Shown: positions 14,591 to 64,000 of the stretch, piece after piece
How the letters are laid out: each line of letters opens with the position of its first letter
Position numbering within the stretch: position 1 is the first letter of the stretch
Assembly (NCBI GenBank): GCA_026874595.1
Contig: CM049308.1
Location: 97,204,624-97,268,623 of the forward strand
DNA length: 64,000 bases
DNA from: Sipunculus nudus
Lineage: Eukaryota > Annelida > Sipuncula > Golfingiida > Sipunculidae
Reading direction: 5' to 3'
The notes under the pieces: generated by a model
What the model was told of the DNA's origin: nothing
Database searches by the model: none
What the model saw: the letters and a program-made list of their open reading frames with translations, nothing else
Program-made: the position numbers and the translations under genes

Positions 14591-14769
14591 ACTATGTTAA
14601 TCATACTCTTGAATCTTAGATTCAGTGACAGAAGCCATATCTGGTTCCTCCTCCCCCTAAGTTGAGCTAATAGATAGATACTGTTTAAGTTTCTTATAAT
14701 CTAGCTGTGGTGATGTAGAGGAGGATAATGGGGATGACAGGGACCTCTCTCGTTTTTTGTCAACACTCA

Positions 14770-19866: not shown

Positions 19867-20225
19867 TCAGGAAATGACATTTTGATCTTTAAGTTGTATG
19901 CTATATTGACCTAATCTCTCAAACACTGTATCTAGCCATTTTAAATGTTCCTCAGTATTTTCTGACTTCAGCAATATGTGATCAATGTATGCAGTTACTC
20001 CGGGTAGACTTACTGATACCTGGTCCATTACTTTCTGACATATGTGATATGATGTTTTGACCAAATAAGTCAACTTGTTTGACTCATACAGTCTCTTCTG
20101 TGTGTTTATTGTCAGATACATCCTGGAGGTTTCAAACACTGATAGCTGAGAATAGGCTTGACTCATATTAAATACACATATCACCTTGCCTTCAGCAAGA
20201 GTGGAAAAATATATCCTCCGAAGTA
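19867..20225 (-). pseudogene. Ty3/gypsy reverse transcriptase relic
   Basis: An open frame of 105 codons (20184-19867), with homology extending upstream to about 20225 (FSTLAEGKV). It has MSQAYSQL (motif A region), LTINTQKRLY, then QKVMDQV and LPGVTAYIDHILL, and ends ERLGQYSIQLK. The catalytic box is YIDH where active enzymes have YxDD, so the second Asp is lost. The 5' end stops at unrelated AT-rich sequence. Confidence 0.88.
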
Positions 20226-20249
20226 GGCAATGGATAAGTCACAACGGTG

Positions 20250-20512: not shown

Positions 20513-20576
20513 ATCAAAGGCCGTCCATACATCAAAAGTCCGTCCATACATCAAAGGTCCGTCCATACAGAAAGAA
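20513..20576. repeat. Minisatellite, about 20-bp unit, three copies
   Basis: Three to four head-to-tail copies of a unit containing ccgtccatacatcaaagg with single-base differences and one 1-bp length change. Confidence 0.85.
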
Positions 20577-20610
20577 TACTTGATGCTCAGTGCATTCGTA
20601 TGTATCGGAT

Positions 20611-20990
20611 GCATCTGAACATCTTGTACTCAGGTACTCATGTGGCACGGGAATGACTACTTACTGATAACAGTACCCATCAGTATTAAATTCGGAGGCA
20701 TCTCAACATATTGTACTCTGAAGTACTCAAAAGGTTTAGACACATGAGTACTTGCTACTCAAAGTACTCGTAACTACTCAAATCTGACGCCTTTGAACGT
20801 ATTTAACTCTAAAGTTCTCATATAGTACGCGAGTGTGTACTTGCTTCTCAATTAGGACGCCTTCAAATATTCTGTATTCGTAAGTACGTATAAAGCACGT
20901 GAAAGAGTACTTAATGCTCGAAGTACTCGGGAGTACTCTAGCTGCACGGATGTGAATAAGTACTTACTGGCAAGAGTACTCGTAAGTAAA
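20611..20990. repeat. Degenerate tandem repeat with agtactc motifs, 70-91-bp period
   Basis: Four diverged units begin near 20611, 20697, 20788 and 20858 with related starts (gcatctgaac, ggcatctcaac, cgcctttgaac, cgccttcaaat). All contain multiple agtactc or gagtact motifs. Spacings are 86, 91 and 70 bp. It is far more diverged than the neighbouring 51-bp satellite and so probably older. Confidence 0.65.
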
Positions 20991-21190
20991 TCTGAGTAAT
21001 ATTGCAGGCATACTGCTCTAAACTGCTTGTATGAGTTCTGAACATGCCATGAAATCCCTTATTATAACTATCAGCTACTTAGCGTACACAAAACCTGTAC
21101 AATAGTTATAAAGCCTTTCTCTAGCCACAACGTGCCCCAGCTTCAATCTGAAGAATCCTGAACACGAGGCTGAAGCTGAAAATATCACCC
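20991..21190. other. Short unassigned spacer before the 51-bp satellite
   Basis: About 200 bp of unremarkable sequence. Homology to the satellite begins sharply at gaatccgaca (21191). No feature is seen. Confidence 0.6.
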
Positions 21191-21269
21191 GAATCCGACA
21201 AAAAATCATAACGGAAAAATTGATGTATCATCAAGTCCGTCAGAATCCGACAGTAATCACAACATAAAA

Positions 21270-23552
21270 ATGGATGTATCATCAAGTCCGTCAGAATCCG
21301 ACAGTAATCACAACATAAAAATGGATGTATCATCAAGTCCGTCAGAATCCGACAGTATCCACAACATAAAAATGGATGTATCATCAATTCCGTCAGAATC
21401 CGACAGTATTCACAACATAAAAATGGAAGTATCATCAATTACGTCAGAATCCGACAGTAATCACAACATAAAAATGGATGTATCATCAATTCCGTCAGAA
21501 TCCGACAGTAATCACAACATAAAAATGGATGTATCATCAATTCCGTCAGAATCCGACAGTAATCATAACATAAAAATGGAAGTATCATCAATTCCGTCAG
21601 AATCCGACAGTAATCACAACATAAAAATGGATGTATCATCAAGTCCGTCAGAATCCGACAGTAATCATAACATAAAAATGGAAGTATCATCAATTCCGTC
21701 AGAATCCGACAGTAATCATAACATAAAAATGGATGTATCATCAATTCCGTCAGAATCCGACAGTAATCACAACATAAAAATGGATGTATCATCAATTCCG
21801 TCAGAATCCGACAGTAATCACAACATAAAAATGGATGTATCATCAAGTCCGTCAGAATCCGACAGTAATCACAACATAAAAATGGATGTATCATCAAGTC
21901 CGTCAGAATCCGACAGTATCCACAACATAAAAATGGATGTATTTTCAATTCCGTCAGAATCCGACAGTATTCACAACATAAAAATGGAAGTATCATCAAT
22001 TACGTCAGAATCCGACAGTAATCACAACATAAAAATGGATGTATCATCAATTCCGTCAGAATCCGACAGTTATCACAACATAAAAATGGATGTATCATCA
22101 ATTCCGTCAGAATCCGACAGTAATCATAACATAAAAATGGAAGTATCATCAATTCCGTCAGAATCCGACAGTAATCACAACATAAAAATGGATGTATCAT
22201 CAAGTCCGTCAGAATCCGACAGTAATCATAACATAAAAATGGAAGTATCATCAATTCCGTCAGAATCCGACAGTAATCATAACATAAAAATGGATGTATC
22301 ATCAATTCCGTCAGAATCCGACAGTAATCACAACATAAAAATTGATGTATCATCAATTCCGTCAGAATCCGACAGTAATCATAACATAAAAATGGAAGTA
22401 TCATCAATTCCGTCAGAATCCGACAGTAATCACAACATAAAAATGGATGTATCATCAAGTCCGTCAGAATCCGAAAGTAATCATAACATAAAAATGGAAG
22501 TATCATCAATTCCGTCAGAATCCGACAGTAATCATAACATAAAAATGGATGTATCATCAATTCCGTCAGAATCCGACAGTAATCACAACATAAAAATGGA
22601 TGTATCATCAATTCCGTCAGAATCCGACAGTAATCATAACATAAAAATGGAAGTATCATCAATTCCGTCAGAATCCGACAGTAATCACAACATAAAAATG
22701 GATGCATCATCAAGTCCGTCAGAATCCGACAGTAATCATAACATAAAAATGGAAGTATCATCAAGTCCGTCAGAATACGACAGTAATCATAACATAAAAA
22801 TGGATGTATCATCAATTCCGTCAGAATCCGACAGTAATCACAACATAAAAATGGATGTATCATCAATTCCGTCAGAATCCGACAGTAATCACAACATAAA
22901 AATGGAAGTATCATCAATTCCGTCAGAATCCGACAGTAATCACAACATAAAAATGGAAGTATCATCAATTCCGTCAGAATCCGACAGTTATCAGAACATA
23001 AAAATGGAAGTATCATCAATTCCATCAGAATCCGACGGTAATCATAACATAAAAATGGATGTATCATCAATTCTGTCAGAATCCGACAGTATTCACAACA
23101 TAAAAATGGATGTATCATCAATTCCGTCAGAATCCGACAGTAATCATAACATAAAAATGGAAGTATCATCAATTCCGTTAGAATCCAACAGTAATCACAA
23201 CGTAAAAATGGATGTATCATCAATTCCGTCAGAATCCGACAGTAATCATAACATAAAAATGGAAGTATCATCAATTCCGTCAGAATCCGACAGTAATCAC
23301 AACATAAAAATGGAAGTATCATCAATTCCGTTAGAATCCGACAGTAATCACAACGTAAAAATGGATGTATCATCAATTCCGTCAGAATCCGACAGTAATC
23401 ATAACATAAAAATGGAAGTATCATCAATTCCGTCAGAATCCGACAGTAATCATAACATAAAAATGGAAGTATCATCAAATACGTCAGAATCCGACAGTAA
23501 TCACAACATATTAAATGGATGTATCATCAATTCCGTCAGAATCCGACAGTAA
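21270..23552 (+). other. Long repetitive open frame in the 51-bp satellite (probably not a gene)
   Basis: 760 codons of about 44 near-identical 17-residue units, acidic and Ser-rich (SESDS in each). The frame exists because 51 is a multiple of three and the monomer lacks stops in this frame. The opposite strand is open over the same region as well. Common variants change residues freely (Ile/Ser, Asp/Glu, Tyr/Ser, Val/Ala), so there is no sign of protein-level constraint. There is no leader, no signal peptide and no non-repeat terminal domain. If it were translated, the product would resemble an acidic phosphoprotein with CK2-type SESD sites, but I think this unlikely. Confidence 0.1.
22086..22850. 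repeat. Pentamer higher-order repeat (255 bp x 3)
   Basis: Classifying monomers by their first residues gives the order D-I, E-I, D-S, E-I, D-I (D/E from gatgta/gaagta; I/S from aattcc/aagtcc). This runs three times head to tail at 22086-22340, 22341-22595 and 22596-22850. An 11-monomer (561-bp) repeat lies just left of it (21270-21830 and 21831-22391). The pentamer is the smallest higher-order unit I can see. Confidence 0.75.
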
Positions 23553-26500
23553 TTACAACATAAAAATGGATGTATCATCAATTCCGTCAGAATCCGACAG
23601 TAATCACAACATAAAAATGGAAGTATCATCAATTCCGTCAGAATCCGACAGTAATCACAACATAAAAATGGAAGTATCATCAATTCCGTCAGAATCCGAC
23701 AGTTATCAGAACATAAAAATGGAAGTATCATCAATTCCATCAGAATCCGACGGTAATCATAACATAAAAATGGATGTATCATCAATTCTGTCAGAATCCG
23801 ACAGTAATCACAACATAAAAATGGATGTATCATCAATTCCGTCAGAATCCGACAGTAATCATAACATAAAAATGGAAGTATCATCAATTCCGTCAGAATC
23901 CGACAGTAATCACAACATAAAAATGGAAGTATCATCAATTCCGTCAGAATCCGACAGTAATCACAACATTAAAATGGAAGTATCATCAAGTCCGTCAGAA
24001 TACGACTGTAATCATAACATAAAAATGGATGTATCATCAATTCCGTCAGAATCCGACAGTAATCACAACATAAAAATGGAGGTATCATCAAGTCCGTCAG
24101 AATCCGACAGTAATCATAACATAAAAATGGAAGTATCATCAATTCCGTCAGAATCCGACAGTAATCATAACATAAAAATGGAAGTATCATCAAATACGTA
24201 AGAATCCGACAGTAATCACAACATATTAAATGGATGTATCATCAATTCCGTCAGAATCCGACAGTAATTACAACATAAAAATGGATGTATCATCAATTCC
24301 GTCAGAATCCGACAGTAATCACAACATAAAAATGGAAGTTTCATCAATTCCGTCAGAATCCGACAGTAATCACAACATAAAAATGGAAGTATCATCAATT
24401 CCGTCAGAATCCGACAGTTATCAGAACATAAAAATGGAAGTATCATCAATTCCATCAGAATCCGACAGTAATCACAACATAAAAATCGATGCATCATCAA
24501 TTATGTCAGAATCCGACAGTGATCATAGCATGAAAAATGGATGTATCATCAAGTGCGTCAGAATCGGAGAGTAATCATAACATAAAAATTGATGCATCAT
24601 CAAGTCCGTCAGAATACGACAGTAATCATAACATAAAAATGGAAGTATCATCAATTCCGTCAGAATCCGACAGTAATCACAACATTAAAATGGATTCATC
24701 ATCAATTCCGTCAGAATCCGACAGTATTCACAACATAAAAATGGATGTATCATCAATTCCGTCAGAATCCGACAGTAATCATAAACTAAAAATGGAAGTA
24801 TCATCAATTACGTCAGAATCCGACAGTAATCACAACATAAAAATGGAAGTATCATCAATTCCGTCAGAATCCGACAGTAATCACAACATAAAAATGGATG
24901 TATCATCAAGTCCGTCAGAATACGACAGTCATCATAACATAAAAATTGATGCATCATCAATTCCGTCAGAATCCGACAGTAATCATAACATAAAAATGGA
25001 TGTATCATCAAGTCCGTCAGAATCCGACAGTAATCACAACATAAAAATGGATGTATCATCAATTCCGTGAGAATCCGACAGTAATCATAACATAAAAATG
25101 GAAGTATCATCAATTCCGTCAGAATCCGAAAGTTATCACAACATAAAAATGGATGTATCATCAAGTCCGTCAGAATCCGACAGTAATCACAACATAGAAA
25201 TGGATGTATCATCAAGTCCGTCAGAATCCGACAGTAATCATAACATAAAAATGTAAGTATCATCAAGTCCGTGAAATTACGACAGTAATCATAACATAAA
25301 AATGGAAGTATCATCAATTCCGTCAGAATCCGACAGTAATCACAACATAAAAATGGATGTATCATCAATTCCGTCAGAATCCGACAGTATTCACAACATA
25401 AAAATGGATGTATCATCAATTCCGTCAGAATCCGACAGTAATCATAAACTAAAAATGGAAGTATCATCAATTCCGTCAGAATCCGACAGTTATCAGAACA
25501 TAAAAATGGAAGTATCATCAATTCCATCAGAATCCGACGGTAATCATAACATAAAAATGGATGTATCATCAATTCTGTCAGAATCCGACAGTATTCACAA
25601 CATAAAAATGGATGTATCATCAATTCCGTCAGAATCCGACAGTAATCATAACATAAAAATGGAAGTATCATCAATTCCGTTAGAATCCAACAGTAATCAC
25701 AACGTAAAAATGGATGTATCATCAATTCCGTCAGAATCCGACAGTAATCATAACATAAAAATGGAAGTATCATCAATTCCGTCAGAATCCGACAGTAATC
25801 ACAACATAAAAATGGAAGTATCATCAATTCCGTTAGAATCCGACAGTAATCACAACGTAAAAATGGATGTATCATCAATTCCGTCAGAATCCGACAGTTA
25901 TCAGAACATAAAAATGGAAGTATCATCAATTCCATCAGAATCCGACGGTAATCATAACATAAAAATGGATGTATCATCAATTCTGTCAGAATCCGACAGT
26001 ATTCACAACATAAAAATGGATGTATCATCAATTCCGTCAGAATCCGACAGTAATCATAACATAAAAATGGAAGTATCATCAATTCCGTTAGAATCCAACA
26101 GTAATCACAACGTAAAAATGGATGTATCATCAATTCCGTCAGAATCCGACAGTAATCATAACATAAAAATGGAAGTATCATCAATTCCGTCAGAATCCGA
26201 CAGTAATCACAACATAAAAATGGAAGTATCATCAATTCCGTTAGAATCCGACAGTAATCACAACGTAAAAATGGATGTATCATCAATTCCGTCAGAATCC
26301 GACAGTAATCATAACATAAAAATGGAAGTATCATCAATTCCGTCAGAATCCGACAGTAATCATAACATAAAAATGGAAGTATCATCAAATACGTCAGAAT
26401 CCGACAGTAATCACAACATATTAAATGGATGTATCATCAATTCCGTCAGAATCCGACAGTAATTACAACATAAAAATGGATGTATCATCAATTCCGTCAG

Positions 26501-28800
26501 AATCCGACAGTAATCACAACATAAAAATGGAAGTATCATCAATTCCGTCAGAATCCGACAGTAATCACAACATAAAAATGGAAGTATCATCAATTCCGTC
26601 AGAATCCGACAGTTATCAGAACATAAAAATGGAAGTATCATCAATTCCATCAGAATCCGACGGTAATCATAACATAAAAATGGATGTATCATCAATTCTG
26701 TCAGAATCCGACAGTAATCACAACATAAAAATGGATGTATCATCAATTCCGTCAGAATCCGACAGTAATCATAACATAAAAATGGAAGTATCATCAATTC
26801 CGTCAGAATCCGACAGTAATCACAACATAAAAATGGAAGTATCATCAATTCCGTCAGAATCCGACAGTAATCACAACATTAAAATGGAAGTATCATCAAG
26901 TCCGTCAGAATACGACTGTAATCATAACATAAAAATGGATGTATCATCAATTCCGTCAGAATCCGACAGTAATCACAACATAAAAATGGAGGTATCATCA
27001 AGTCCGTCAGAATCCGACAGTAATCATAACATAAAAATGGAAGTATCATCAATTCCGTCAGAATCCGACAGTAATCATAACATAAAAATGGAAGTATCAT
27101 CAAATACGTAAGAATCCGACAGTAATCACAACATATTAAATGGATGTATCATCAATTCCGTCAGAATCCGACAGTAATTACAACATAAAAATGGATGTAT
27201 CATCAATTCCGTCAGAATCCGACAGTAATCACAACATAAAAATGGAAGTTTCATCAATTCCGTCAGAATCCGACAGTAATCACAACATAAAAATGGAAGT
27301 ATCATCAATTCCGTCAGAATCCGACAGTTATCAGAACATAAAAATGGAAGTATCATCAATTCCATCAGAATCCGACAGTAATCACAACATAAAAATCGAT
27401 GCATCATCAATTATGTCAGAATCCGACAGTGATCATAGCATGAAAAATGGATGTATCATCAAGTGCGTCAGAATCGGAGAGTAATCATAACATAAAAATT
27501 GATGCATCATCAAGTCCGTCAGAATACGACAGTAATCATAACATAAAAATGGAAGTATCATCAATTCCGTCAGAATCCGACAGTAATCACAACATTAAAA
27601 TGGATTCATCATCAATTCCGTCAGAATCCGACAGTATTCACAACATAAAAATGGATGTATCATCAATTCCGTCAGAATCCGACAGTAATCATAAACTAAA
27701 AATGGAAGTATCATCAATTACGTCAGAATCCGACAGTAATCACAACATAAAAATGGAAGTATCATCAATTCCGTCAGAATCCGACAGTAATCACAACATA
27801 AAAATGGATGTATCATCAAGTCCGTCAGAATACGACAGTCATCATAACATAAAAATTGATGCATCATCAATTCCGTCAGAATCCGACAGTAATCATAACA
27901 TAAAAATGGATGTATCATCAAGTCCGTCAGAATCCGACAGTAATCACAACATAAAAATGGATGTATCATCAATTCCGTGAGAATCCGACAGTAATCATAA
28001 CATAAAAATGGAAGTATCATCAATTCCGTCAGAATCCGAAAGTTATCACAACATAAAAATGGATGTATCATCAAGTCCGTCAGAATCCGACAGTAATCAC
28101 AACATAGAAATGGATGTATCATCAAGTCCGTCAGAATCCGACAGTAATCATAACATAAAAATGTAAGTATCATCAAGTCCGTGAAATTACGACAGTAATC
28201 ATAACATAAAAATGGAAGTATCATCAATTCCGTCAGAATCCGACAGTAATCACAACATAAAAATGGATGTATCATCAATTCCGTCAGAATCCGACAGTAT
28301 TCACAACATAAAAATGGATGTATCATCAATTCCGTCAGAATCCGACAGTAATCATAAACTAAAAATGGAAGTATCATCAATTCCGTCAGAATCCGACAGT
28401 TATCAGAACATAAAAATGGAAGTATCATCAATTCCATCAGAATCCGACGGTAATCATAACATAAAAATGGATGTATCATCAATTCTGTCAGAATCCGACA
28501 GTATTCACAACATAAAAATGGATGTATCATCAATTCCGTCAGAATCCGACAGTAATCATAACATAAAAATGGAAGTATCATCAATTCCGTTAGAATCCAA
28601 CAGTAATCACAACGTAAAAATGGATGTATCATCAATTCCGTCAGAATCCGACAGTAATCATAACATAAAAATGGAAGTATCATCAATTCCGTCAGAATCC
28701 GACAGTAATCACAACATAAAAATGGAAGTATCATCAATTCCGTTAGAATCCGACAGTAATCACAACGTAAAAATGGATGTATCATCAATTCCGTCAGAAT
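22981..28800. repeat. 2,910-bp higher-order repeat, two tandem copies plus a partial third
   Basis: Copy 1 is 22981-25890 and copy 2 is 25891-28800, with a constant offset of 2,910 bp. All recognisable variants line up: the tattaaatgg 1-bp insertion at about 23511 and 24228 recurs at about 26421 and 27138; the catgaaaaatgg insertion recurs; the stop-bearing ccgtgagaatcc monomer recurs. 2,910 equals 57 x 51 plus 3, and the three extra bases are these three 1-bp insertions. A partial third copy runs from about 28903 to about 30690 with an offset of 2,297 bp (45 x 51 plus 2). Confidence 0.88.
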
Positions 28801-31800
28801 CCGACAGTAATCATAACGTAAAAATGGATGTATCATCAATTCCGTCAGAATCCGACAGTAATCATAACATAAAAATGGATGTATTATCAATTCCGTCAGA
28901 ATCCGACAGTTATCAGAACATAAAAATGGAAGTATCATCAATTCCATCAGAATCCGACGGTAATCATAACATAAAAATGGATGTATCATCAATTCTGTCA
29001 GAATCCGACAGTAATCACAACATAAAAATGGATGTATCATCAATTCCGTCAGAATCCGACAGTAATCATAACATAAAAATGGAAGTATCATCAATTCCGT
29101 CAGAATCCGACAGTAATCACAACATAAAAATGGAAGTATCATCAATTCCGTCAGAATCCGACAGTAATCACAACATTAAAATGGAAGTATCATCAAGTCC
29201 GTCAGAATACGACTGTAATCATAACATAAAAATGGATGTATCATCAATTCCGTCAGAATCCGACAGTAATCACAACATAAAAATGGAGGTATCATCAAGT
29301 CCGTCAGAATCCGACAGTAATCATAACATAAAAATGGAAGTATCATCAATTCCGTCAGAATCCGACAGTAATCATAACATAAAAATGGAAGTATCATCAA
29401 ATACGTAAGAATCCGACAGTAATCACAACATATTAAATGGATGTATCATCAATTCCGTCAGAATCCGACAGTAATTACAACATAAAAATGGATGTATCAT
29501 CAATTCCGTCAGAATCCGACAGTAATCACAACATAAAAATGGAAGTTTCATCAATTCCGTCAGAATCCGACAGTAATCACAACATAAAAATGGAAGTATC
29601 ATCAATTCCGTCAGAATCCGACAGTTATCAGAACATAAAAATGGAAGTATCATCAATTCCATCAGAATCCGACAGTAATCACAACATAAAAATCGATGCA
29701 TCATCAATTATGTCAGAATCCGACAGTGATCATAGCATGAAAAATGGATGTATCATCAAGTGCGTCAGAATCGGAGAGTAATCATAACATAAAAATTGAT
29801 GCATCATCAAGTCCGTCAGAATACGACAGTAATCATAACATAAAAATGGAAGTATCATCAATTCCGTCAGAATCCGACAGTAATCACAACATTAAAATGG
29901 ATTCATCATCAATTCCGTCAGAATCCGACAGTATTCACAACATAAAAATGGATGTATCATCAATTCCGTCAGAATCCGACAGTAATCATAAACTAAAAAT
30001 GGAAGTATCATCAATTACGTCAGAATCCGACAGTAATCACAACATAAAAATGGAAGTATCATCAATTCCGTCAGAATCCGACAGTAATCACAACATAAAA
30101 ATGGATGTATCATCAAGTCCGTCAGAATACGACAGTCATCATAACATAAAAATTGATGCATCATCAATTCCGTCAGAATCCGACAGTAATCATAACATAA
30201 AAATGGATGTATCATCAAGTCCGTCAGAATCCGACAGTAATCACAACATAAAAATGGATGTATCATCAATTCCGTGAGAATCCGACAGTAATCATAACAT
30301 AAAAATGGAAGTATCATCAATTCCGTCAGAATCCGAAAGTTATCACAACATAAAAATGGATGTATCATCAAGTCCGTCAGAATCCGACAGTAATCACAAC
30401 ATAGAAATGGATGTATCATCAAGTCCGTCAGAATCCGACAGTAATCATAACATAAAAATGTAAGTATCATCAAGTCCGTGAAATTACGACAGTAATCATA
30501 ACATAAAAATGGAAGTATCATCAATTCCGTCAGAATCCGACAGTAATCACAACATAAAAATGGATGTATCATCAATTCCGTCAGAATCCGACAGTATTCA
30601 CAACATAAAAATGGATGTATCATCAATTCCGTCAGAATCCGACAGTAATCATAAACTAAAAATGGAAGTATCATCAATTACGTCAGAATCCGACAGTAAT
30701 CACAACATAAAAATGGAAGTATCATCAATTCCGTCAGAATCCGACAGTAATCACAACATAAAAATGGATGTATCATCAAGTCCGTCAGAATACGACGGTC
30801 ATCATAACATAAAAATTGATGCATCATCAATTCCGTCAGAATCCGACAGTAATCATAACATAAAAATGGATGTATCATCAAGTCCGTCAGAATCCGACAG
30901 TAATCACAACATAAAAATCGATGCATCATCAATTATGTCAGAATCCGACAGTGATCATAGCATGAAAAATGGATGTATCATCAAGTGCGTCAGAATCGGA
31001 GAGTAATCATAACATAAAAATTGATGCATCATCAAGTCCGTCAGAATACGACAGTAATCATAACATAAAAATCGATGCATCATCAATTCTGTCAGAATCC
31101 GACAGTAATCATAATTTAAAAAGTTGATGTATCATCAAGTCCGTCAGAACCGACATAAATCATAACAGAAAAATGGATGTATTATCAAGTTCGTCTGATC
31201 CAGCACTAATCATAACAGAAAAATGGATGTATTTTCAAGTCCATCAGAACCGACACTAATCATAACAGAAAAATGGATGTATTATGAAGTCCGTCAGAAC
31301 CGACACTAATCATAACAGAAAAATTGATGTATTATCAAGTCCGTCAGATCCAACACTAATCATAACTAAAAAATGGATGTTTTATCAAATCCGTCAGATC
31401 CAACACTAATCAAAACATAAAAATGGATGTATTATCAATTCCGTCAGAACCCGACAGTAATCATAACAGAAAAAATGAATGTATCATCAAGTCCGTCAGA
31501 ATCCGACAGTAATCATAACATAAAAATTGATGCATCATCAATTCAGTCAGAATCCGACAGTAATCATTACAGAAAAATTGATGTGTCATCAAGTCCGTCA
31601 GTATCCGACAGTAATCATAACATAAAAATTCATGCATCATCAAGTCCGTCAGAATCCGACAGTAATCATAACAGAAAAATGGATGTATCGTCAAGTCCCT
31701 CAGTATCCGACAGTAATCAGAACATAAAAATGGATGTATCATCAATTCCGTCAGAATCCGACAGTAATCACAACATAAAAATGGATGTATCATCAATTCC

Positions 31801-49100: not shown

Positions 49101-52031
49101 TCGTCTGATCCAGCACTAATCATAACAGAAAAATGGATGTATTTTCAAGTCCATCAGAACCGACACTAATCATAACAGAAAAATGGATGTATTATGAAGT
49201 CCGTCAGAACCGACACTAATCATAACAGAAAAATTGATGTATTATCAAGTCCGTCAGATCCAACACTAATCATAACTAAAAAATGGATGTTTTATCAAAT
49301 CCGTCAGATCCAACACTAATCAAAACATAAAAATGGATGTATTATCAATTCCGTCAGAATCCGACAGTAATCATAACAGAAAAATGGATGTATCGTCAAG
49401 TCCCTCAGTATCCGACAGTAATCAGAACATAAAAATGGATGTATCATCAATTCCGTCAGAATCCGACAGTAATCACAACATAAAAATGGATGTATCATCA
49501 ATTCCGTCAAAATCCGACAGTTATCATAACAGAAAAATTGATGTATTATCAAGTCCGTCAGATCCAACACTAATCATAACTAAAAAATGGATGTTTTATC
49601 AAATCCGTCAGATCCAACACTAATCAAAACATAAAAATGGATGTATTATCAATTCCGTCAGAATCCGACAGTAATCATAACAGAAAAAAATGAATGTATC
49701 ATCAAGTCCGTCAGAATCCGACAGTAATCATAACATAAAAATTGATGCATCATCAATTCAGTCAGAATCCGACAGTAATCATTACAGAAAAATTCATGCA
49801 TCATCAAGTCCGTCAGAATCCGACAGTAATCATAACAGAAAAATGGATGTATCGTTAAGTCCCTCAGTATCCGACAGTAATCAGAACATAAAAATGGATG
49901 TATCATCAATTCCGTCAGAATCCGACAGTAATCACAACATAAAAATGGATGTATCATCAATTCCGTCAAAATCCGACAGTTATCATAACATAAAAATGGA
50001 TGTATCATCAATTCCGTCAGAATCCGACAGTAATCACAACATAAAAATGGATGTATCATCAATTCCGTCAGAATCCGACAGTAATCATAACATAAAAATG
50101 GAAGTATCATCAATTCCGTGAGAATCCGACAGTAATCACAACATAAAAATGGAAGTATCATCAAGTCCGTCAGAATACGATAGTAATCATAACATAAAAA
50201 TGGATGTATCATCAATTCCGTCAGAATCCGACAGTAATCACCACATAAAAATGGATGTATCATCAATTCCGTCAGAATCCGACAGTAATCACAACGTAAA
50301 AATGGATGTATCATCAATTCCGTCAGAATCCGACAGTAATCACAACATAAAAATGGAAGTATCATCAATTCCGTCAGAATCCGACAGTAATCATAACATA
50401 AAAATGGATGTATCATCAATTCCGTCAGAATCCGACAGTAATCATAACATAAAAATGGATGTATCATCAATTCCGTCAGAATCCGACAGTAATCACAACA
50501 TAAAAATGGATGTATCATCAAGTGCGTCAGAATCGGACAGTAATCATAACATAAAATTCGATGCATCATCAATTCCGTCAGAATCCGACAGTAATCATAA
50601 CATGAAAATTGATACATCATCAAGTACGTCAGAATCTGACAGTAAACATAACATAAAAATTGATGCATCATCAATTCCGTCAGAATACGACAGTAATCAT
50701 AACATAAAAATCGATGCATCATCAATTCTGTCAGAATCCGACAGTAATCATAATTTAAAAAGTTGATGTATCATCAAGTCCGTCAGAACCGACATAAATC
50801 ATAACAGAAAAATGGATGTATTATCAAGTTCGTCTGATCCAGCACTAATCATAACAGAAAAATGGATGTATTTTCAAGTCCATCAGAACCGACACTAATC
50901 ATAACAGAAAAATGGATGTATTATGAAGTCCGTCAGAACCGACACTAATCATAACAGAAAAATTGATGTATTATCAAGTCCGTCAGATCCAACACTAATC
51001 ATAACTAAAAAATGGATGTTTTATCAAATCCGTCAGATCCAACACTAATCAAAACATAAAAATGGATGTATTATCAATTCCTTCAGAATCCGACAGTAAT
51101 CATAACAGAAAAAATGAATGTATCATCAAGTCCGTCAGAATCCGACAGTAATCATAACATAAAAATTGATGCATCATCAATTCAGTCAGAATCCGACAGT
51201 AATCATTACAGAAAAATTGATGTATCATCAAGTCCGTCAGTATCCGACAGTAATCATAACATAAAAATTCATGCATCATCAAGTCCGTCAGAATCCGACA
51301 GTAATCATAACAGAAAAATGGATGTATCGTCAAGTCCCTCAGTATCCGACAGTAATCAGAACATAAAAATGGATGTATCATCAATTCCGTCAGAATCCGA
51401 CAGTAATCACAACATAAAAATGGATGTATCATCAATTCCGTCAAAATCCGACAGTTAGCATAACATAAAAATGGATGTATCATCAATTCCGTCAGAATCC
51501 GACAGTAATCACAACATAAAAATGGATGTATCATCAATTCCGTCAGAATCCGACAGTAATCACAACGTAAAAATGGATGTATCATCAATTCCGTCAGAAT
51601 CCGACAGTAATCATAACATAAAAATGGAAGTATCATCAATTCCGTCAGAATCCGACAGTAATCATAACATAAAAATGGATGTATCATCAATTCCGTCAGA
51701 ATCCGACAGTAATCATAACATAAAAATGGATGTATCATCAATTCCGTCAGAATCCGACAGTAATCACAACATAAAAATGGATGTATCATCAAGTGCGTCA
51801 GAATCGGACAGTTATCATAACATAAAATTCGATGCATCATCAATTCCGTCAGAATCCGACAGTAATCATAACATGAAAATTGATACATCATCAAGTACGT
51901 CAGAATCTGACAGTAAACATAACATAAAAATTGATGCATCATCAATTCCGTCAGAATACGACAGTAATCATAACATAAAAATCGATGCATCATCAATTCT
52001 GTCAGAATCCGACAGTAATCATAATTTAAAA
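37129..52031. repeat. 8,036-bp higher-order supra-unit and shortened second copy
   Basis: The spacing of 50-bp blocks from 37129 is 2394, 1473, 1729, 1526, 914 (sum 8,036). From 45165 it is 2394, 1473, 1729, 1271, ending at 52032. The second copy lacks 255 bp (five monomers) in the fourth interval and the whole 914-bp fifth interval. Private differences are few, for example cataaaaatgg near 38754 versus catataaatgg near 46790, and ccgccag near 41837 versus ccgacag near 49873. Confidence 0.88.
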
Positions 52032-55000
52032 AGTTGATGTATCATCAAGTCCGTCAGAACCGACATAAATCATAACAGAAAAATGGATGTATTATCAAGT
52101 TCGTCTGATCCAGCACTAATCATAACAGAAAAATGGATGTATTTTCAAGTTCGTCTGATCCAGCACTAATCATAACAGAAAAATGGATGTATTTTCAAGT
52201 CCATCAGAACCGACACTAATCATAACAGAAAAATGGATGTATTATGAAGTCCGTCAGAACCGACAGTAATCATAACATTAAAATGTAAGTATCATCAAGT
52301 CCGTCAGAATACGACAGTAATCATAACATAAAAATGGAAGTATCATCAATTCCGTCAGAATCCGACAGTAATCACAACATTAAAATGGATGTATCATCAA
52401 TTCCGTCAGAATCCGACAGTATTCACAACATAAAAATGGATGTATCATCAATTCCGTCAGAATCCGACAGTAATCATAAACTAAAAATGGAAGTATCATC
52501 AATTTCGTCAGAATCCGACAGTAATCACAACATAAAAATGAAAGTATCATCAATTCCGTCAGAATCCGACAGTAATCACAACATAAAAATGGATGTATCA
52601 TCAAGTCCGTCAGAATACGACAGTCATCATAACATAAAAATTGATGCATCATCAATTCCGTCAGAATCCGACAGTAATCATAACATAAAAATGGATGTAT
52701 CATCAAGTCCGTCAGAATCCGACAGTAATCACAACATAAAAATGGATGTATCATCAATTCCGTGAGAATCCGACAGTAATCATAACATAAAAATGGAAGT
52801 ATCATCAATTCCGTCAGAATCCGAAAGTAATCACAACATAAAAATGGATGTATCATCAATTCCGTCAGAATCCGACAGTTATCACAACATAGAAATGGAT
52901 GTATCATCAAGTCCGTCAGAATCCGACAGTAATCATAACATAAAAATGTAAGTATCATCAAGTCCGTCAAATTACGACAGTAATCATAACATAAAAATGG
53001 AAGTATCATCAATTCCGTCAGAATCCGACAGTAATCACAACATAAAAATGGATGTATCATCAATTCCGTCAGAATCCGACAGTATTCACAACATAAAAAT
53101 GGATGTATCATCAATTCCGTCAGAATCCGACAGTAATCATAAACTAAAAATGGAAGTATCATCAATTACGTCAGAATCCGACAGTAATCACAACATAAAA
53201 ATGGAAGTATCATCAATTCCGTCAGAATCCGACAGTAATCACAACATAAAAATGGATGTATCATCAAGTCCGTCAGAATACGACGGTCATCATAACATAA
53301 AAATTGATGCATCATCAATTCCGTCAGAATCCGACAGTAATCATAACATAAAAATGGATGTATCATCAAGTCCGTCAGAATCCGACAGTAATCACAACAT
53401 AAAAATGGATGTATCATGAATTGCGTCAGAATCGGACAGTAATCATAACATAAAATTCGATGCATCATCAATTCCGTCAGAATCCGACAGTAATCATAAC
53501 ATGAAAATTGATACATCATCAAGTACGTCAGAATCTGACAGTAAACATAACATAAAAATTGATGCATCATCAATTCCGACAGAATCCGACAGTAATCATA
53601 ACATAAAAATGGATGTATCATCAATTCCGTCAGAATCCGACAGTATTCACAACATAAAAATGGATGTATCATCAATTCCGTCAGAATCCGACAGTAATCA
53701 TAAACTAAAAATGGAAGTATCATCAATTACGTCAGAATCCGACAGTAATCACAACATAAAAATGGAAGTATCATCAATTCCGTCAGAATCCGACAGTAAT
53801 CACAACATAAAAATGGATGTATCATCAAGTCCGTCAGAATACGACGGTCATCATAACATAAAAATTGATGCATCATCAATTCCGTCAGAATCCGACAGTA
53901 ATCATAACATAAAAATGGATGTATCATCAAGTCCGTCAGAATCCGACAGTAATCACAACATAAAAATGGATGTATCATGAATTGCGTCAGAATCGGACAG
54001 TAATCATAACATAAAATTCGATGCATCATCAATTCCGTCAGAATCCGACAGTAATCATAACATGAAAATTGATACATCATCAAGTACGTCAGAATCTGAC
54101 AGTAAACATAACATAAAAATTGATGCATCATCAATTCCGACAGAATCCGACAGTAATCATAACATAAAAATGGATGTATCATCAATTCCGTCAGAATCCG
54201 ACAGTAATCACAACATAAAAATCGATGCATCATCAATTCTGTCAGAATCCGACAGTGATCATAGCATGAAAAATGGATGTATCATCAAGTGCGTCAGAAT
54301 CGGAGAGTAATCATAACATAAAAATTGATGCATCATCAAGTCCGTCAGAATACGACAGTAATCATAACATAAAAATCGATGCATCATCAATTCTGTCAGA
54401 ATCCGACAGTAATCATAATTTAAAAAGTTGATGTATCATCAAGTCCGTCAGAACCGACATAAATCATAACAGAAAAATGGATGTATTATCAAGTTCGTCT
54501 GATCCAGCACTAATCATAACAGAAAAATGGATGTATTTTCAGGTCCATCAGAACCGACACTAATCATAACAGAAAAATGGATGTATTATGAAGTCCGTCA
54601 GAACCGACACTAATCATAACAGAAAAATTGATGTATTATCAAGTCCGTCAGATCCAACACTAATCATAACTAAAAAATGGATGTTTTATCAAATCCGTCA
54701 GATCCAACACTAATCAAAACATAAAAATGGATGTATTATCAATTCCGTCAGAATCCGACAGTAATCATAACAGAAAAAATGAATGTATCATCAAGTCCGT
54801 CAGAATCCGACAGTAATCATAACATAAAAATTGATGCATCATCAATTCAGTCAGAATCCGACAGTAATCATTACAGAAAAATTGATGTATCATCAAGTCC
54901 GTCAGTATCCGACAGTAATCATAACATAAAAATCCATGCATCATCAAGTCCGTCAGAATCCGACAGTAATCATAACATAAAAATTGATGCATCATCAATT

Positions 55001-58000
55001 CAGTCAGAATCCGACAGTAATCATTACAGAAAAATTGATGTATCATCAAGTCCGTCAGTATCCGACAGTAATCATAACATAAAAATTCATGCATCATCAA
55101 GTCCGTCAGAATCCGACAGTAATCATAACAGAAAAATGGATGTATCGTCAAGTCCCTCAGTATCCGACAGTAATCAGAACATAAAAATGGATGTATCATC
55201 AATTCCGTCAGAATCCGACAGTAATCACAACATAAAAATGGATGTATCATCAATTCCGTCAAAATCCGACAGTTAGCATAACATAAAAATGGATGTATCA
55301 TCAATTCCGTCAGAATCCGACAGTAATCACAACATAAAAATGGATGTATCATCAATTCCGTCAGAATCCGACAGTAATCACAACGTAAAAATGGATGTAT
55401 CATCAATTCCGTCAGAATCCGACAGTAATCATAACATAAAAATGGAAGTATCATCAATTCCGTCAGAATCCGACAGTAATCATAACATAAAAATGGATGT
55501 ATCATCAATTCCGTCAGAATCCGACAGTAATCATAACATAAAAATGGATGTATCATCAATTCCGTCAGAATCCGACAGTAATCACAACATAAAAATGGAT
55601 GTATCATCAAGTGCGTCAGAATCGGACAGTTATCATAACATAAAATTCGATGCATCATCAATTCCGTCAGAATCCGACAGTAATCATAACATGAAAATTG
55701 ATACATCATCAAGTACGTCAGAATCTGACAGTAAACATAACATAAAAATTGATGCATCATCAATTCCGTCAGAATACGACAGTAATCATAACATAAAAAT
55801 CGATGCATCATCAATTCTGTCAGAATCCGACAGTAATCATAATTTAAAAAGTTGATGTATCATCAAGTCCGTCAGAACCGACATAAATCATAACAGAAAA
55901 ATGGATGTATTATCAAGTTCGTCTGATCCAGCACTAATCATAACAGAAAAATGGATGTATTTTCAAGTTCGTCTGATCCAGCACTAATCATAACAGAAAA
56001 ATGGATGTATTTTCAAGTCCATCAGAACCGACACTAATCATAACAGAAAAATGGATGTATTATGAAGTCCGTCAGAACCGACAGTAATCATAACATTAAA
56101 ATGTAAGTATCATCAAGTCCGTCAGAATACGACAGTAATCATAACATAAAAATGGAAGTATCATCAATTCCGTCAGAATCCGACAGTAATCACAACATTA
56201 AAATGGATGTATCATCAATTCCGTCAGAATCCGACAGTATTCACAACATAAAAATGGATGTATCATCAATTCCGTCAGAATCCGACAGTAATCATAAACT
56301 AAAAATGGAAGTATCATCAATTTCGTCAGAATCCGACAGTAATCACAACATAAAAATGAAAGTATCATCAATTCCGTCAGAATCCGACAGTAATCACAAC
56401 ATAAAAATGGATGTATCATCAAGTCCGTCAGAATACGACAGTCATCATAACATAAAAATTGATGCATCATCAATTCCGTCAGAATCCGACAGTAATCATA
56501 ACATAAAAATGGATGTATCATCAAGTCCGTCAGAATCCGACAGTAATCACAACATAAAAATGGATGTATCATCAATTCCGTGAGAATCCGACAGTAATCA
56601 TAACATAAAAATGGAAGTATCATCAATTCCGTCAGAATCCGAAAGTAATCACAACATAAAAATGGATGTATCATCAATTCCGTCAGAATCCGACAGTTAT
56701 CACAACATAGAAATGGATGTATCATCAAGTCCGTCAGAATCCGACAGTAATCATAACATAAAAATGTAAGTATCATCAAGTCCGTCAAATTACGACAGTA
56801 ATCATAACATAAAAATGGAAGTATCATCAATTCCGTCAGAATCCGACAGTAATCACAACATAAAAATGGATGTATCATCAATTCCGTCAGAATCCGACAG
56901 TATTCACAACATAAAAATGGATGTATCATCAATTCCGTCAGAATCCGACAGTAATCATAAACTAAAAATGGAAGTATCATCAATTACGTCAGAATCCGAC
57001 AGTAATCACAACATAAAAATGGAAGTATCATCAATTCCGTCAGAATCCGACAGTAATCACAACATAAAAATGGATGTATCATCAAGTCCGTCAGAATACG
57101 ACGGTCATCATAACATAAAAATTGATGCATCATCAATTCCGTCAGAATCCGACAGTAATCATAACATAAAAATGGATGTATCATCAAGTCCGTCAGAATC
57201 CGACAGTAATCACAACATAAAAATGGATGTATCATGAATTGCGTCAGAATCGGACAGTAATCATAACATAAAATTCGATGCATCATCAATTCCGTCAGAA
57301 TCCGACAGTAATCATAACATGAAAATTGATACATCATCAAGTACGTCAGAATCTGACAGTAAACATAACATAAAAATTGATGCATCATCAATTCCGACAG
57401 AATCCGACAGTAATCATAACATAAAAATGGATGTATCATCAATTCCGTCAGAATCCGACAGTATTCACAACATAAAAATGGATGTATCATCAATTCCGTC
57501 AGAATCCGACAGTAATCATAAACTAAAAATGGAAGTATCATCAATTACGTCAGAATCCGACAGTAATCACAACATAAAAATGGAAGTATCATCAATTCCG
57601 TCAGAATCCGACAGTAATCACAACATAAAAATGGATGTATCATCAAGTCCGTCAGAATACGACGGTCATCATAACATAAAAATTGATGCATCATCAATTC
57701 CGTCAGAATCCGACAGTAATCATAACATAAAAATGGATGTATCATCAAGTCCGTCAGAATCCGACAGTAATCACAACATAAAAATGGATGTATCATGAAT
57801 TGCGTCAGAATCGGACAGTAATCATAACATAAAATTCGATGCATCATCAATTCCGTCAGAATCCGACAGTAATCATAACATGAAAATTGATACATCATCA
57901 AGTACGTCAGAATCTGACAGTAAACATAACATAAAAATTGATGCATCATCAATTCCGACAGAATCCGACAGTAATCATAACATAAAAATGGATGTATCAT

Positions 58001-59565
58001 CAATTCCGTCAGAATCCGACAGTAATCACAACATAAAAATCGATGCATCATCAATTCTGTCAGAATCCGACAGTGATCATAGCATGAAAAATGGATGTAT
58101 CATCAAGTGCGTCAGAATCGGAGAGTAATCATAACATAAAAATTGATGCATCATCAAGTCCGTCAGAATACGACAGTAATCATAACATAAAAATCGATGC
58201 ATCATCAATTCTGTCAGAATCCGACAGTAATCATAATTTAAAAAGTTGATGTATCATCAAGTCCGTCAGAACCGACATAAATCATAACAGAAAAATGGAT
58301 GTATTATCAAGTTCGTCTGATCCAGCACTAATCATAACAGAAAAATGGATGTATTTTCAGGTCCATCAGAACCGACACTAATCATAACAGAAAAATGGAT
58401 GTATTATGAAGTCCGTCAGAACCGACACTAATCATAACAGAAAAATTGATGTATTATCAAGTCCGTCAGATCCAACACTAATCATAACTAAAAAATGGAT
58501 GTTTTATCAAATCCGTCAGATCCAACACTAATCAAAACATAAAAATGGATGTATTATCAATTCCGTCAGAATCCGACAGTAATCATAACAGAAAAAATGA
58601 ATGTATCATCAAGTCCGTCAGAATCCGACAGTAATCATAACATAAAAATTGATGCATCATCAATTCAGTCAGAATCCGACAGTAATCATTACAGAAAAAT
58701 TGATGTATCATCAAGTCCGTCAGTATCCGACAGTAATCATAACATAAAAATCCATGCATCATCAAGTCCGTCAGAATCCGACAGTAATCATAACAGAAAA
58801 ATGGATGTATCGTCAAGTCCCTCAGTATCCGACAGTAATCAGAACATAAAAATGGATGTATCATCAATTCCGTCAGAATCCGACAGTAATCACAACATAA
58901 AAATGGATGTATCATCAATTCCGTCAAAATCCGACAGTTATCATAACATAAAAATGGATGTATCATCAATTCCGTCAGAATCCGACAGTAATCACAACAT
59001 AAAAATGGATGTATCATCAATTCCGTCAGAATCCGACAGTAATCACCACATAAAAATGGATGTATCATCAATTCCGTCAGAATCCGACAGTAATCACAAC
59101 GTAAAAATGGATGTATCATCAATTCCGTCAGAATCCGACAGTAATCATAACATAAAAATGGAAGTATCATCAATTCCGTCAGAATCCGACAGTAATCATA
59201 ACATAAAAATGGATGTATCATCAATTCCGTCAGAATCCGACAGTAATCATAACATAAAAATGGATGTATCATCAATTCCGTCAGAATCCGACAGTAATCA
59301 CAACATAAAAATGGATGTATCATCAAGTGCGTCAGAATCGGACAGTAATCATAACATAAAATTCGATGCATCATCAATTCCGTCAGAATCCGACAGTAAT
59401 CATAACATGAAAATTGATACATCATCAAGTACGTCAGAATCTGACAGTAAACATAACATAAAAATTGATGCATCATCAATTCCGTCAGAATACGACAGTA
59501 ATCATAACATAAAAATCGATGCATCATCAATTCTGTCAGAATCCGACAGTAATCATAATTTAAAA
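52032..59565. repeat. 3,818-bp higher-order repeat and shortened second copy
   Basis: Intervals 2394 + 1424 (52032-55849) are followed by 2394 + 1322 (55850-59565). Matching landmarks are offset by exactly 3,818 bp, including the ccatgcatc variant and the 'caggtccatcag' variant in the 50-bp block. The second copy is 102 bp (two monomers) shorter. The 2,394-bp segment is the same unit that opens each copy of the 8,036-bp repeat. Confidence 0.88.
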
Positions 59566-60888
59566 AGTTGATGTATCATCAAGTCCGTCAGAACCGACAT
59601 AAATCATAACAGAAAAATGGATGTATTATCAAGTTCGTCTGATCCAGCACTAATCATAACAGAAAAATGGATGTATTTTCAAGTCCATCAGAACCGACAC
59701 TAATCATAACAGAAAAATGGATGTATTATGAAGTCCGTCAGAACCGACACTAATCATAACAGAAAAATTGATGTATTATCAAGTCCGTCAGATCCAACAT
59801 TAATCATAACTAAAAAATGGATGTTTTATCAAATCCGTCAGAACCGACACTAATCAAAACATAAAAATGGATGTATTATCAATTCCGTCAGAATCCGACA
59901 GTAATCATAACAGAAAAAATGAATGTATCATCAAGTCCGTCAGAATCCGACAGTAATCATAACATAAAAATTGATGCATCATCAATTCAGTCAGAATCCG
60001 ACAGTAATCATTACAGAAAAATTGATGTATCATCAAGTCCGTCAGTATCCGACAGTAATCATAACATAAAAATCCATGCATCATCAAGTCCGTCAGAATC
60101 CGACAGTAATCATAACAGAAAAATGGATGTATCGTCAAGTCCCTCAGTATCCGACAGTAATCAGAACATAAAAATGGATGTATCATCAATTCCGTCAGAA
60201 TCCGACAGTAATCACAACATAAAAATGGATGTATCATCAATTCCGTCAGAATCCGACAGTAATCATAACATAAAAATGGATGTATCATCAATTCCGTCAG
60301 AATCCGACAGTAATCACAACATAAAAATGGATGTATCATCAATTCCGTCAGAATCCGACAGTAATCACCACATAAAAATGGATGTATCATCAATTCCGTC
60401 AGAATCCGACAGTAATCACAACGTAAAAATGGATGTATCATCAATTCCGTCAGAATCCGACAGTAATCATAACATAAAAATGGAAGTATCATCAATTCCG
60501 TCAGAATCCGACAGTAATCATAACATAAAAATGGATGTATCATCAATTCCGTCAGAATCCGACAGTAATCATAACATAAAAATGGATGTATCATCAATTC
60601 CGTCAGAATCCGACAGTAATCACAACATAAAAATGGATGTATCATCAAGTGCGTCAGAATCGGACAGTAATCATAACATAAAATTCGATGCATCATCAAT
60701 TCCGTCAGAATCCGACAGTAATCATAACATGAAAATTGATACATCATCAAGTACGTCAGAATCTGACAGTAAACATAACATAAAAATTGATGCATCATCA
60801 ATTCCGTCAGAATACGACAGTAATCATAACATAAAAATCGATGCATCATCAATTCTGTCAGAATCCGACAGTAATCATAATTTAAAAA
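58244..60888. repeat. 1,322-bp higher-order repeat, two copies
   Basis: 58244-59565 and 59566-60888 are tandem copies with landmarks offset by 1,322 bp. Each contains one 50-bp block and one open run of 340 codons, nearly identical in sequence. A further shorter repeat with offset 1,015 bp follows (61189 versus 62204). Confidence 0.88.
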
Positions 60889-63800
60889 GTTGATGTATCA
60901 TCAAGTCCGTCAGAACCGACATAAATCATAACAGAAAAATGGATGTATTATCAAGTTCGTCTGATCCAGCACTAATCATAACAGAAAAATGGATGTATTT
61001 TCAAGTCCATCAGAACCGACACTAATCATAACAGAAAAATGGATGTATTATGAAGTCCGTCAGAACCGACACTAATCATAACAGAAAAATTGATGTATTA
61101 TCAAGTCCGTCAGATCCAACATTAATCATAACTAAAAAATGGATGTTTTATCAAATCCGTCAGATCCAACACTAATCAAAACATAAAAATGGATGTATTA
61201 TCAATTCCGTCAGAATCCGACAGTAATCATAACAGAAAAATGGATGTATCGTCAAGTCCCTCAGTATCCGACAGTAATCAGAACATAAAAATGGATGTAT
61301 CATCAATTCCGTCAGAATCCGACAGTAATCACAACATAAAAATGGATGTATCATCAATTCCGTCAAAATCCGACAGTTATCATAACAGAAAAATTGATGT
61401 ATTATCAAGTCCGTCAGATCCAACACTAATCATAACTAAAAAATGGATGTTTTATCAAATCCGTCAGATCCAACACTAATCAAAACATAAAAATGGATGT
61501 ATTATCAATTCCGTCAGAATCCGACAGTAATCATAACAGAAAAAATGAATGTATCATCAAGTCCGTCAGAATCCGACAGTAATCATAACATAAAAATTGA
61601 TGCATCATCAATTCAGTCAGAATCCGACACTAATCATTACAGAAAAATTGATGTATCATCAAGTCCGTCAGTATCCGACAGTAATCACAACATAAAAATG
61701 GATGTATCATCAAGTGCGTCAGAATCGGACAGTAATCATAACATAAAATTCGATGCATCATCAATTCCGTCAGAATCCGACAGTAATCATAACATGAAAA
61801 TTGATACATCATCAAGTACGTCAGAATCTGACAGTAAACATAACATAAAAATTGATGCATCATCAATTCCGTCAGAATACGACAGTAATCATAACATAAA
61901 AATCGATGCATCATCAATTCTGTCAGAATCCGACAGTAATCATAATTTAAAAAGTTGATGTATCATCAAGTCCGTCAGAACCGACATAAATCATAACAGA
62001 AAAATGGATGTATTATCAAGTCCATCAGAACCGACACTAATCATAACAGAAAAATGGATGTATTATGAAGTCCGTCAGAACCGACACTAATCATAACAGA
62101 AAAATTGATGTATTATCAAGTCCGTCAGATCCAACACTAATCATAACTAAAAAATGGATGTTTTATCAAATCCGTCAGATCCAACACTAATCAAAACATA
62201 AAAATGGATGTATTATCAATTCCGTCAGAATCCGACAGTAATCATAACAGAAAAATGGATGTATCGTCAAGTCCCTCAGTATCCGACAGTAATCAGAACA
62301 TAAAAATGGATGTATCATCAATTCCGTCAGAATCCGACAGTAATCACAACATAAAAATGGATGTATCATCAATTCCGTCAAAATCCGACAGTTATCATAA
62401 CAGAAAAATTGATGTATTATCAAGTCCGTCAGATCCAACACTAATCATAACTAAAAAATGGATGTTTTATCAAATCCGTCAGATCCAACACTAATCAAAA
62501 CATAAAAATGGTTGTATTATCAATTCCGTCAGAATCCGACAGTAATCATAACAGAAAAAATGAATGTATCATCAAGTCCGTCAGAATCCGACAGTAATCA
62601 TAACATAAAAATTGATGCATCATCAATTCAGTCAGAATCCGACACTAATCATTACAGAAAAATTGATGTATCATCAAGTCCGTCAGTATCCGACAGTAAT
62701 CATAACATAAAAATTCATGCATCATCAAGTCCGTCAGAATCCGACAGTAATCATAACAGAAAAATGGATGTATCGTCAAGTCCCTAAGAATCCGACAGTA
62801 ATCATAACAGAAAAATGGATGTATCGTCAAGTCCCTCAGTATCCGACAGTAATCAGAACATAAAAATGGATGTATCATCAATTCCGTCAGAATCCGACAG
62901 TAATCACAACATAAAAATGGATGTATCATCAATTCCGTCAGAATCCGACAGTAATCACAACATAAAAATGGAAGTATCATCAATTCCGTCAGAATCCGAC
63001 AGTAATTATAACATAAAAATGGATGTATCATCAATTCCGTCAGAATACGACAGTAATCACAATATAAAAATGGATGTATCATCAATTCCGTCAGAATCCG
63101 ACAGTAATCACAACATAAAAATGGATGTATCATCAAGTCCGTCAGAATCCGACAGTCATCATAACATAAAAATTGATGCATCATCAATTCCGTCAGAATC
63201 CGACAGTAATCATAACATAAAAATGGATGTATCATCAAGTCCGTCAGAATCCGACAGTAATCACAACATAAAAATGGATGTATCATCAATTCCGTGAGAA
63301 TCCGACAGTAATCATAACATAAAAATGGAAGTATCATCAATTCCGTCAGAATCCGAAAGTAATCACAACATAAAAATGGATGTATCATCAATTCCGTCAG
63401 AATCCGACAGTAATCACAACATAGAAATGGATATATCATCAAGTCCGTCAGAATCCGACAGTAATCATAACATAAAAATGTAAGTATCATCAAGTCCGTC
63501 AAATTACGACAGTAATCATAACATAAAAATGGAAGTATCATCAATTCCGTCAGAATCCGACAGTAATCACAACATAAAAATGGATGTATCATCAATTCCG
63601 TCAGAATCCAACAGTATTCACAACATAAAAATGGATGTATCATCAATTCCGTCAGAATCCGACAGTAATCATAAACTAAAAATGGAAGTATCATCAATTA
63701 CGTCAGAATCCGACAGTAATCACAACATAAAAATGGAAGTATCATCAATTCCGTCAGAATCCGACAGTAATCACAACATAAAAATGGATGTATCATCAAG

Positions 63801-64000
63801 TCCGTCAGAATACGACGGTCATCATAACATAAAAATTGATGCATCATCAATTCCGTCAGAATCCGACAGTAATCATAACATAAAAATGGATGTATCATCA
63901 AGTCCGTCAGAATCCGACAGTAATCACAACATAAAAATGGATGTATCATGTATTGCGTCAGAATCGGACAGTAATCATAACATAAAATTCGATGCATCAT

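Follow-up and report, generated by a model that had tools for sequence, protein, structure and literature searches.

A tandem array with a 51-bp unit, located on a chromosome-sized contig of Sipunculus nudus ~0.6-0.7 Mb from its end, is probably an exceptionally large, young and locus-specific minisatellite that has grown by in-register block duplication. It occupies the right part of a 64,000-bp stretch, referred to here as the window (GenBank assembly GCA_026874595.1, contig CM049308.1, hereafter C3, positions 97,204,624-97,268,623). The assembly comprises 1.427 Gb in 153 contigs, among which C1-C17 measure 61-111 Mb each and sum to ~1,397 Mb; C3 itself has 97,945,123 bp.

Tandem Repeats Finder (TRF) run on the window revealed a single array with a period of 51 bp, 840.8 copies and 90% matches, and wraparound decomposition divided it into 841 monomers, in agreement with the very large array of ~840 monomers described in a first-pass annotation. 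As also stated there, the array leaves the window at its right edge. A further 80 kb of the contig was read, and the full array measures 114.2 kb with 2,245 monomers. The monomers follow one another without spacing, and no element is inserted anywhere in the 114 kb. They fall into 196 distinct types with a mean pairwise identity of 0.88; 1,773 of the 2,245 are exactly 51 bp long, and lengths stay within 49-53 bp in all but the final two, which lie at the right edge and measure 57 and 8 bp. The composition of the array is strand-asymmetric. Identity to the consensus is highest in the first 100 monomers (0.955), amounts to 0.92-0.955 per hundred elsewhere and is lowest at the right edge (0.886 in the last 45 monomers), the usual look of a decaying array margin. 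The observed/expected CpG ratio of 1.31, compared to a left-flank value of 0.49 and to 0.62 for 46 internal probes, is in keeping with youth, missing methylation or mere monomer make-up. Folding of the monomer was no better than that of shuffles on both strands (z 0.35 and 0.25), which speaks against a structure-forming monomer, and the exact monomer core had no match among viral contigs.

Further analysis of the monomer order revealed long repeated blocks. The strongest repeat shifts are 323, 145, 170, 93 and 158 monomers, which correspond to blocks of 16,437, 7,380, 8,644, 4,729 and 8,036 bp, respectively. The longest stretch of monomers that agree at one fixed shift counts 243 (at shift 323), compared to at most 4 in 20 shuffles of the monomer order. 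Blocks were listed at a length of at least 1.2 kb, 98.5% identity over 400-bp windows and shifts of 200-70,000 bp, and each unit size was assessed over the whole array by its best run. A partner block at 99% identity or more exists for 91% of the array. The first-pass annotation had proposed a hierarchy of higher-order units, of which those of 1,322, 2,910, 3,818 and 8,036 bp exist, but as essentially single tandem duplications (Table 1). The 561-bp unit (an 11-mer; 15 runs, the best with ~2.3 copies) and the 255-bp unit (three runs, chiefly at 21,944-23,031 with 4.3 copies) are likewise present, whereas the 2,394-bp unit is weak (six runs, at most 885 bp matched). Four larger blocks lie partly or wholly beyond the window: 16,437 bp (~2 copies), 8,644 bp (2 copies; 1 mismatch in a core of 8,338 bp), 7,380 bp (2.8 copies; 7 mismatches in 12,779 bp) and 4,729 bp (~2 copies; 1 mismatch in 4,598 bp). 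In the assembly as given, the multi-kb cores differ by only 0-7 bases, which upholds the recent block-wise amplification proposed before. Most large units are single tandem duplications of ~2 copies and not a homogeneous higher-order repeat. Moreover, blocks lie within blocks, as in the 8,644-bp unit, which is the sum of a 4,729-bp and a 3,915-bp shift; the history therefore looks like serial nested tandem duplications, not one higher-order unit recopied.

All 168 near-identical blocks were matched at the same monomer offset, i.e. in register. As the high-identity criterion in part dictates this outcome, the real evidence is the absence of partial monomers at the junctions. Blocks in register without partial monomers thus point to recombination of misaligned homologous copies, since randomly joined ends would produce incomplete monomers.

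The array was found at one locus only. A 34-base core pattern with up to three mismatches gave 1,720 forward and no reverse matches genome-wide, and the same pattern gave 1,720 forward and no reverse matches in the 144-kb stretch around the array, all within the array. The two counts being equal, the assembly therefore holds no other copy of the core at that stringency, which covers up to three mismatches, with more diverged copies and gapped stretches outside its reach. The single-locus claim rests on these pattern counts because the DNA similarity searches gave the best 150 of 162 and the best 150 of 364 rows, with 8 of 13 and 40 of 75 candidates scored. At this stringency the 51-bp family is confined to a single locus and a single orientation. 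A role of the 51-bp unit as a general satellite of chromosome ends was rejected, unlike for two satellites of 180 bp and 376 bp that are common to several ends. The ~180-bp satellite recurs near the ends of C3, C6 and C8, and the ~376-bp satellite near the ends of C7, C8 and C9, with 74-94% identity within each group.

Table 1. Features of the window, with positions counted from its first base
Feature	Position	Strand	Details
45-bp minisatellite	2240-3526; also 7393-8530 and 15195-15408	+	TRF; pattern search
Left flank of the array	20561-21190		no second match among the best 150 of 364 rows, 40 of 75 candidates scored
51-bp tandem array	21191-64000	+	841 monomers in the window (TRF; decomposition); extends on the contig to ~C3:97,340,035
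Left edge of the array, 46 monomers	21191-23549	+	frame almost unbroken; 255-bp and 561-bp sub-periods
2,910-bp block, tandem duplication	22778-28910	+	2.11 copies, 99.5%; 0 mismatches in 2,784-bp core
8,036-bp block, tandem duplication	36973-51792	+	1.84 copies, 99.7%; 4 mismatches in 6,284-bp core
3,818-bp block, tandem duplication	51104-58841	+	2.03 copies, 99.6%; 0 mismatches in 3,496-bp core
16,437-bp duplication, first part	55210-64000	+	runs to ~87,670 (window-extended coordinates); 6 mismatches in 15,558-bp core
1,322-bp block, tandem duplication	58088-61248	+	2.39 copies, 98.8%

We propose that one 51-bp sequence would have been duplicated in tandem at a single place ~0.6-0.7 Mb from the C3 end, and that the array would then have expanded as in-register blocks of increasing size, from a single monomer to 16.4 kb, were duplicated again and again. 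Such growth would be possible because a restarted replication fork, two homologues or two sister chromatids can shift against each other by whole monomers and recombine. The engine is presumably homologous misalignment, either unequal exchange or break-induced/template-switch replication, both of which the data fit alike. A passage in PMC5615363 states that local repeat growth may come by unequal crossing-over, and that higher-order repeats are amplification units of smaller monomers. The near-zero divergence of several blocks and the lack of inserted elements suggest that turnover is recent and perhaps continuing, provided that the assembly is right. The array presumably has no selected function of its own.

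With its 51-bp unit, the array falls within the range of minisatellites (~10-60 or 10-100 bp), and all 1,720 core matches, each in forward orientation, belong to one locus. Its length of 114.2 kb departs from the short euchromatic array of a minisatellite, a property that is usual but not strictly defining, and its 2,245 units lie in the hundreds to thousands of a classical satellite. The array is a minisatellite by unit length and single-locus distribution, and satellite DNA by copy number; the label “very large satellite” given at first pass thus fits the copy number but not the unit length and the distribution. According to a section of PMC12692304, the two classes overlap, their boundaries being called loose there and in PMC5615363, and a minisatellite array typically spans a few hundred bp, unlike the 114 kb and the nested duplications to 16 kb seen here. 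The array resembles the hypervariable minisatellites, or variable number of tandem repeats (VNTR) loci, outlined in part of PMC5615363, in its unit length (11-60 bp), the restriction of each family to one locus, strand asymmetry, internal variants and the clustering of unrelated families near an end. The same text, where it treats location, describes minisatellites as common in pericentromeric and subtelomeric heterochromatin. In the satellitome of Pontastacus leptodactylus, 240 of 258 tandem families are minisatellites, as reported in a portion of PMC12692304. Both genomes possess many short-unit families, but those of P. leptodactylus were counted genome-wide, whereas in the present case they are concentrated locally within a single terminal zone.

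The surrounding zone is indeed crowded with short-unit arrays, with units of ~21-66 bp in the probes from C3:96.5-97.6 Mb. Minisatellites cluster towards chromosome ends in mammals. In S. nudus, at least half of the probe was minisatellite in 13 of the 21 one-kb cluster probes (15 at 97.36-97.59 Mb and six at 96.5-97.2 Mb), compared to 3 of 47 internal probes; the Fisher p of 2.3e-6 is optimistic because of a post hoc interval, a thinly sampled left half and shared arrays. The internal positives comprise 2 of 11 probes on C3 and 1 of 36 on other chromosomes. Probes located 0.3-1.2 Mb from other chromosome ends were positive in 7 of 59 cases versus the 3 of 47 internal ones (p = 0.51), which leaves a general enrichment of minisatellites at chromosome ends unsupported. 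The test omitted 300-bp probes, 10-kb pieces, contig ends, one all-N probe and one further probe; two probe groups tallied apart from it had minisatellite in 0 of 4 and 1 of 3. The G+C content is 0.396 in the cluster probes (n = 21) versus 0.359 in the internal probes (n = 47; p = 0.002), and 0.342 in the 51-bp array.

A comparison of 35 repeat-bearing sequences, including the 51-bp and 45-bp repeats, gave similarity at E ≤ 1e-3 only in four pairs, all from neighbouring places. By that comparison the zone has ~21 groups, a few of them seen solely as short or partial arrays, so that the terminal C3 zone appears, by sequence, to hold ~20 mutually unrelated minisatellite families. Several of them are as local as the 51-bp family. 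All 60 genome matches to the core of the 45-bp unit lie in a 22-kb stretch at C3:97.197-97.220 Mb, all 35 to the 48-bp unit at C3:96.498-96.508 Mb, and the two to the 39-bp unit at C3:97.59 Mb. The 31-bp unit (292 forward, 0 reverse) and the 27-bp unit (1,111 forward, 0 reverse) each fit one site among the first 100 places listed. To the right, the 51-bp array gives way to a short GT-rich spacer and then to another array, whose 31-bp unit is arranged as a 92-bp trimer. This organization comes closer to a true higher-order repeat than that of the 51-bp array. Judging from the probes, the 31-bp array is ~35 kb long (C3:97,340,100-97,348,623 was read). The 27-bp minisatellite at C3:96.94-97.00 Mb may span at least 60 kb, as the first of its listed places is at 96.9397 Mb and the probe taken at 97.000 Mb consists of it throughout.

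Several points weigh against a locus-specific minisatellite that arose young in a minisatellite-rich setting. The cluster interval was chosen after the first probes had been seen, and only 2 of its 21 probes fall in 96.5-97.0 Mb; in addition, the 13 positive probes represent 11 distinct arrays, since two arrays were each hit by two of them. The G+C content of the array gives no sign of a recombination-driven rise. All data come from one assembly, so that copy-number variation between individuals is an assumption for this minisatellite, and a false tandem expansion by the assembler is possible, above all for the blocks with 0-1 differences. Finally, the left 46 monomers preserve the frame with hardly a break, and their mean minor frequency at codon positions 1, 2 and 3 (0.014, 0.031 and 0.058) is highest at the third, in a small and related sample; a coding origin would likewise predict this pattern.

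A more far-reaching reading, which we regard as rather unlikely, takes C3:96.5-97.6 Mb as a nursery of minisatellites in which breaks or crossovers would be chronic, similar in kind to a minisatellite-rich pseudoautosomal region. In such a domain ~20 unrelated private arrays would have arisen independently from local single-copy DNA and would still grow by in-register blocks, and they might serve pairing, recombination or the centromere of that chromosome. The mouse pseudoautosomal minisatellite mo-2 has a unit of ~31 bp. Unlike mo-2, the 51-bp family is private to one locus and is known here from sequence alone. The likeness to mo-2, as far as the relevant part of PMC9575207 goes, lies in short-unit arrays in a terminal domain; that part credits mo-2 with a role in meiotic recombination.

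Alternatively, the array or the whole C3:96.5-97.6 Mb zone might be an acrocentric centromere or pericentromere, with the private satellites as chromosome-specific centromeric DNA. Dense long tandem arrays on one chromosome, other ends without significant enrichment (7/59 vs 3/47, p = 0.51) and homogenized multi-kb blocks would fit this assignment, which we nevertheless consider unlikely. The zone contains ~20 unrelated families and not one dominant array, and the 51-bp unit, being found at no other place, cannot be a general centromeric satellite. The first-pass annotation had likened the array to alpha-satellite, whose ~171-bp monomer is present on all chromosomes and whose units are repeated hundreds of times. 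The two share multi-monomer units amplified in blocks at very high identity. However, here the monomer is 51 bp, at one locus on one contig and not common to many centromeres, and instead of one multi-monomer unit present many times at 95-100%, even the largest units reach 1.8-2.8 copies and most ~2. The comparison with alpha-satellite could therefore not be maintained. No CENP-B-box-like site with 0 or 1 mismatch to the box consensus was found in the 114 kb (177 sites have 2 mismatches, on the plus strand only). This carries little weight, since the box is absent from many animals.

It is improbable that the long near-identical blocks are assembly artefacts, e.g. haplotypes or reads falsely duplicated within the array. 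Several blocks do show only 0-1 differences over 3-8 kb, and they are known from the assembly alone. Against this, the blocks are nested and of many sizes, with 1 to 7 differences in several cores, and would therefore require more than one assembly error, which is an argument and not a test. The 51-bp array itself is independent of the blocks.

The period is a multiple of 3, and a stop-free stretch of 790 codons starts at 21180 and runs over the left 46 monomers, raising the idea that the repeat is, or recently was, an exon for a 17-residue repeat protein (consensus ESDSNHNIKMDVSSIPS) with the left edge perhaps a remnant. Pfam gave four matches on the 790-residue frame, of which DUF4946 and DUF7765 (unknown function) are above the whole-protein cut-offs, but none of the four has a single stretch that passes alone, as expected when weak scores sum over a repeat. 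The opposite strand has long open stretches too. Over the whole array, 21 synonymous, 81 non-synonymous and 6 stop variants were observed versus 30, 115 and 8 possible, i.e. in the proportions available, and 471 of 2,245 monomers change the frame, so that neither a synonymous excess nor a preserved frame extends over the array. In the left 46 monomers the greatest variation falls on the third codon position, and to a lesser degree this also holds for the 1,771 indel-free monomers (0.035, 0.060 and 0.078 at positions 1, 2 and 3), whereas across all 2,245 monomers the second position is the most variable (minor frequencies 0.040, 0.088 and 0.077). The array as a whole is without coding constraint, and a coding remnant at the left 46 monomers is ambiguous. 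A coding origin of the whole array is disfavoured by the variant classes, the frame-changing indels and the Pfam results, and the exon reading is highly improbable.

To the left of the array, the flank contains at 20651-20988 a scattered and decayed 35-bp direct repeat in four copies, three of which are 66-77% like the first. A reverse-transcriptase fragment (Pfam RVT_1, E 4e-7) lies at 19870-20238 of the window, ~1 kb left of the array. Within 2240-15408, a long interspersed nuclear element (LINE) with a reverse transcriptase lies on the minus strand, with stop-free stretches at 4499-5647 and 10003-11934. The LINE and the 45-bp minisatellite sit in tandemly duplicated segments (4517-6811 vs 10804-13097, 99.3%; 2387-4520 vs 7393-9531, 94.4%). 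The two C3 ends (first 1 kb, last 2 kb) bear A+T-rich repeats that are related to each other and contain CTTAAGTTGAATA-like motifs, and TTAGGGTTAGGG is absent from both strands. Among the matches listed, a TTAGGG array lies 404 kb inside C2 (C2:404,120-404,828), which is either an interstitial telomere block or a misjoin. In addition, COX1 gave nine matches of near-equal score in eight contigs (C60, C61, C62, C66, C72, C74, C75 and C89). The two COX1 loci that were read are bacterial, with 37-38% G+C and at most 58% identity to the 80 loci retained from a collection of genome contigs, and a third oxidase locus is also bacterial; this suggests that several strains of a bacterial associate are present in the assembly.

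The 51-bp minisatellite represents a known kind of locus, although its size and nested blocks are striking and its monomer may well be undescribed. A search for literature on 51-bp satellite DNA in bivalves found no paper in the open literature, to which it was confined, so that the monomer may still be described; further searches brought up mainly reviews and satellitome papers. Provided that the assembly is correct, the array offers a clean and completely legible record of tandem-repeat growth, with blocks of 1.3 to 16 kb in register, almost unmutated, and no insertion in 114 kb. It also advises caution: a short-unit repeat may contain near-identical units of several kb without being a centromere. 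The cluster is of more interest than the array itself: a zone with many unrelated arrays in ~1.1 Mb makes it testable whether minisatellites are born where breakage or recombination is highest.

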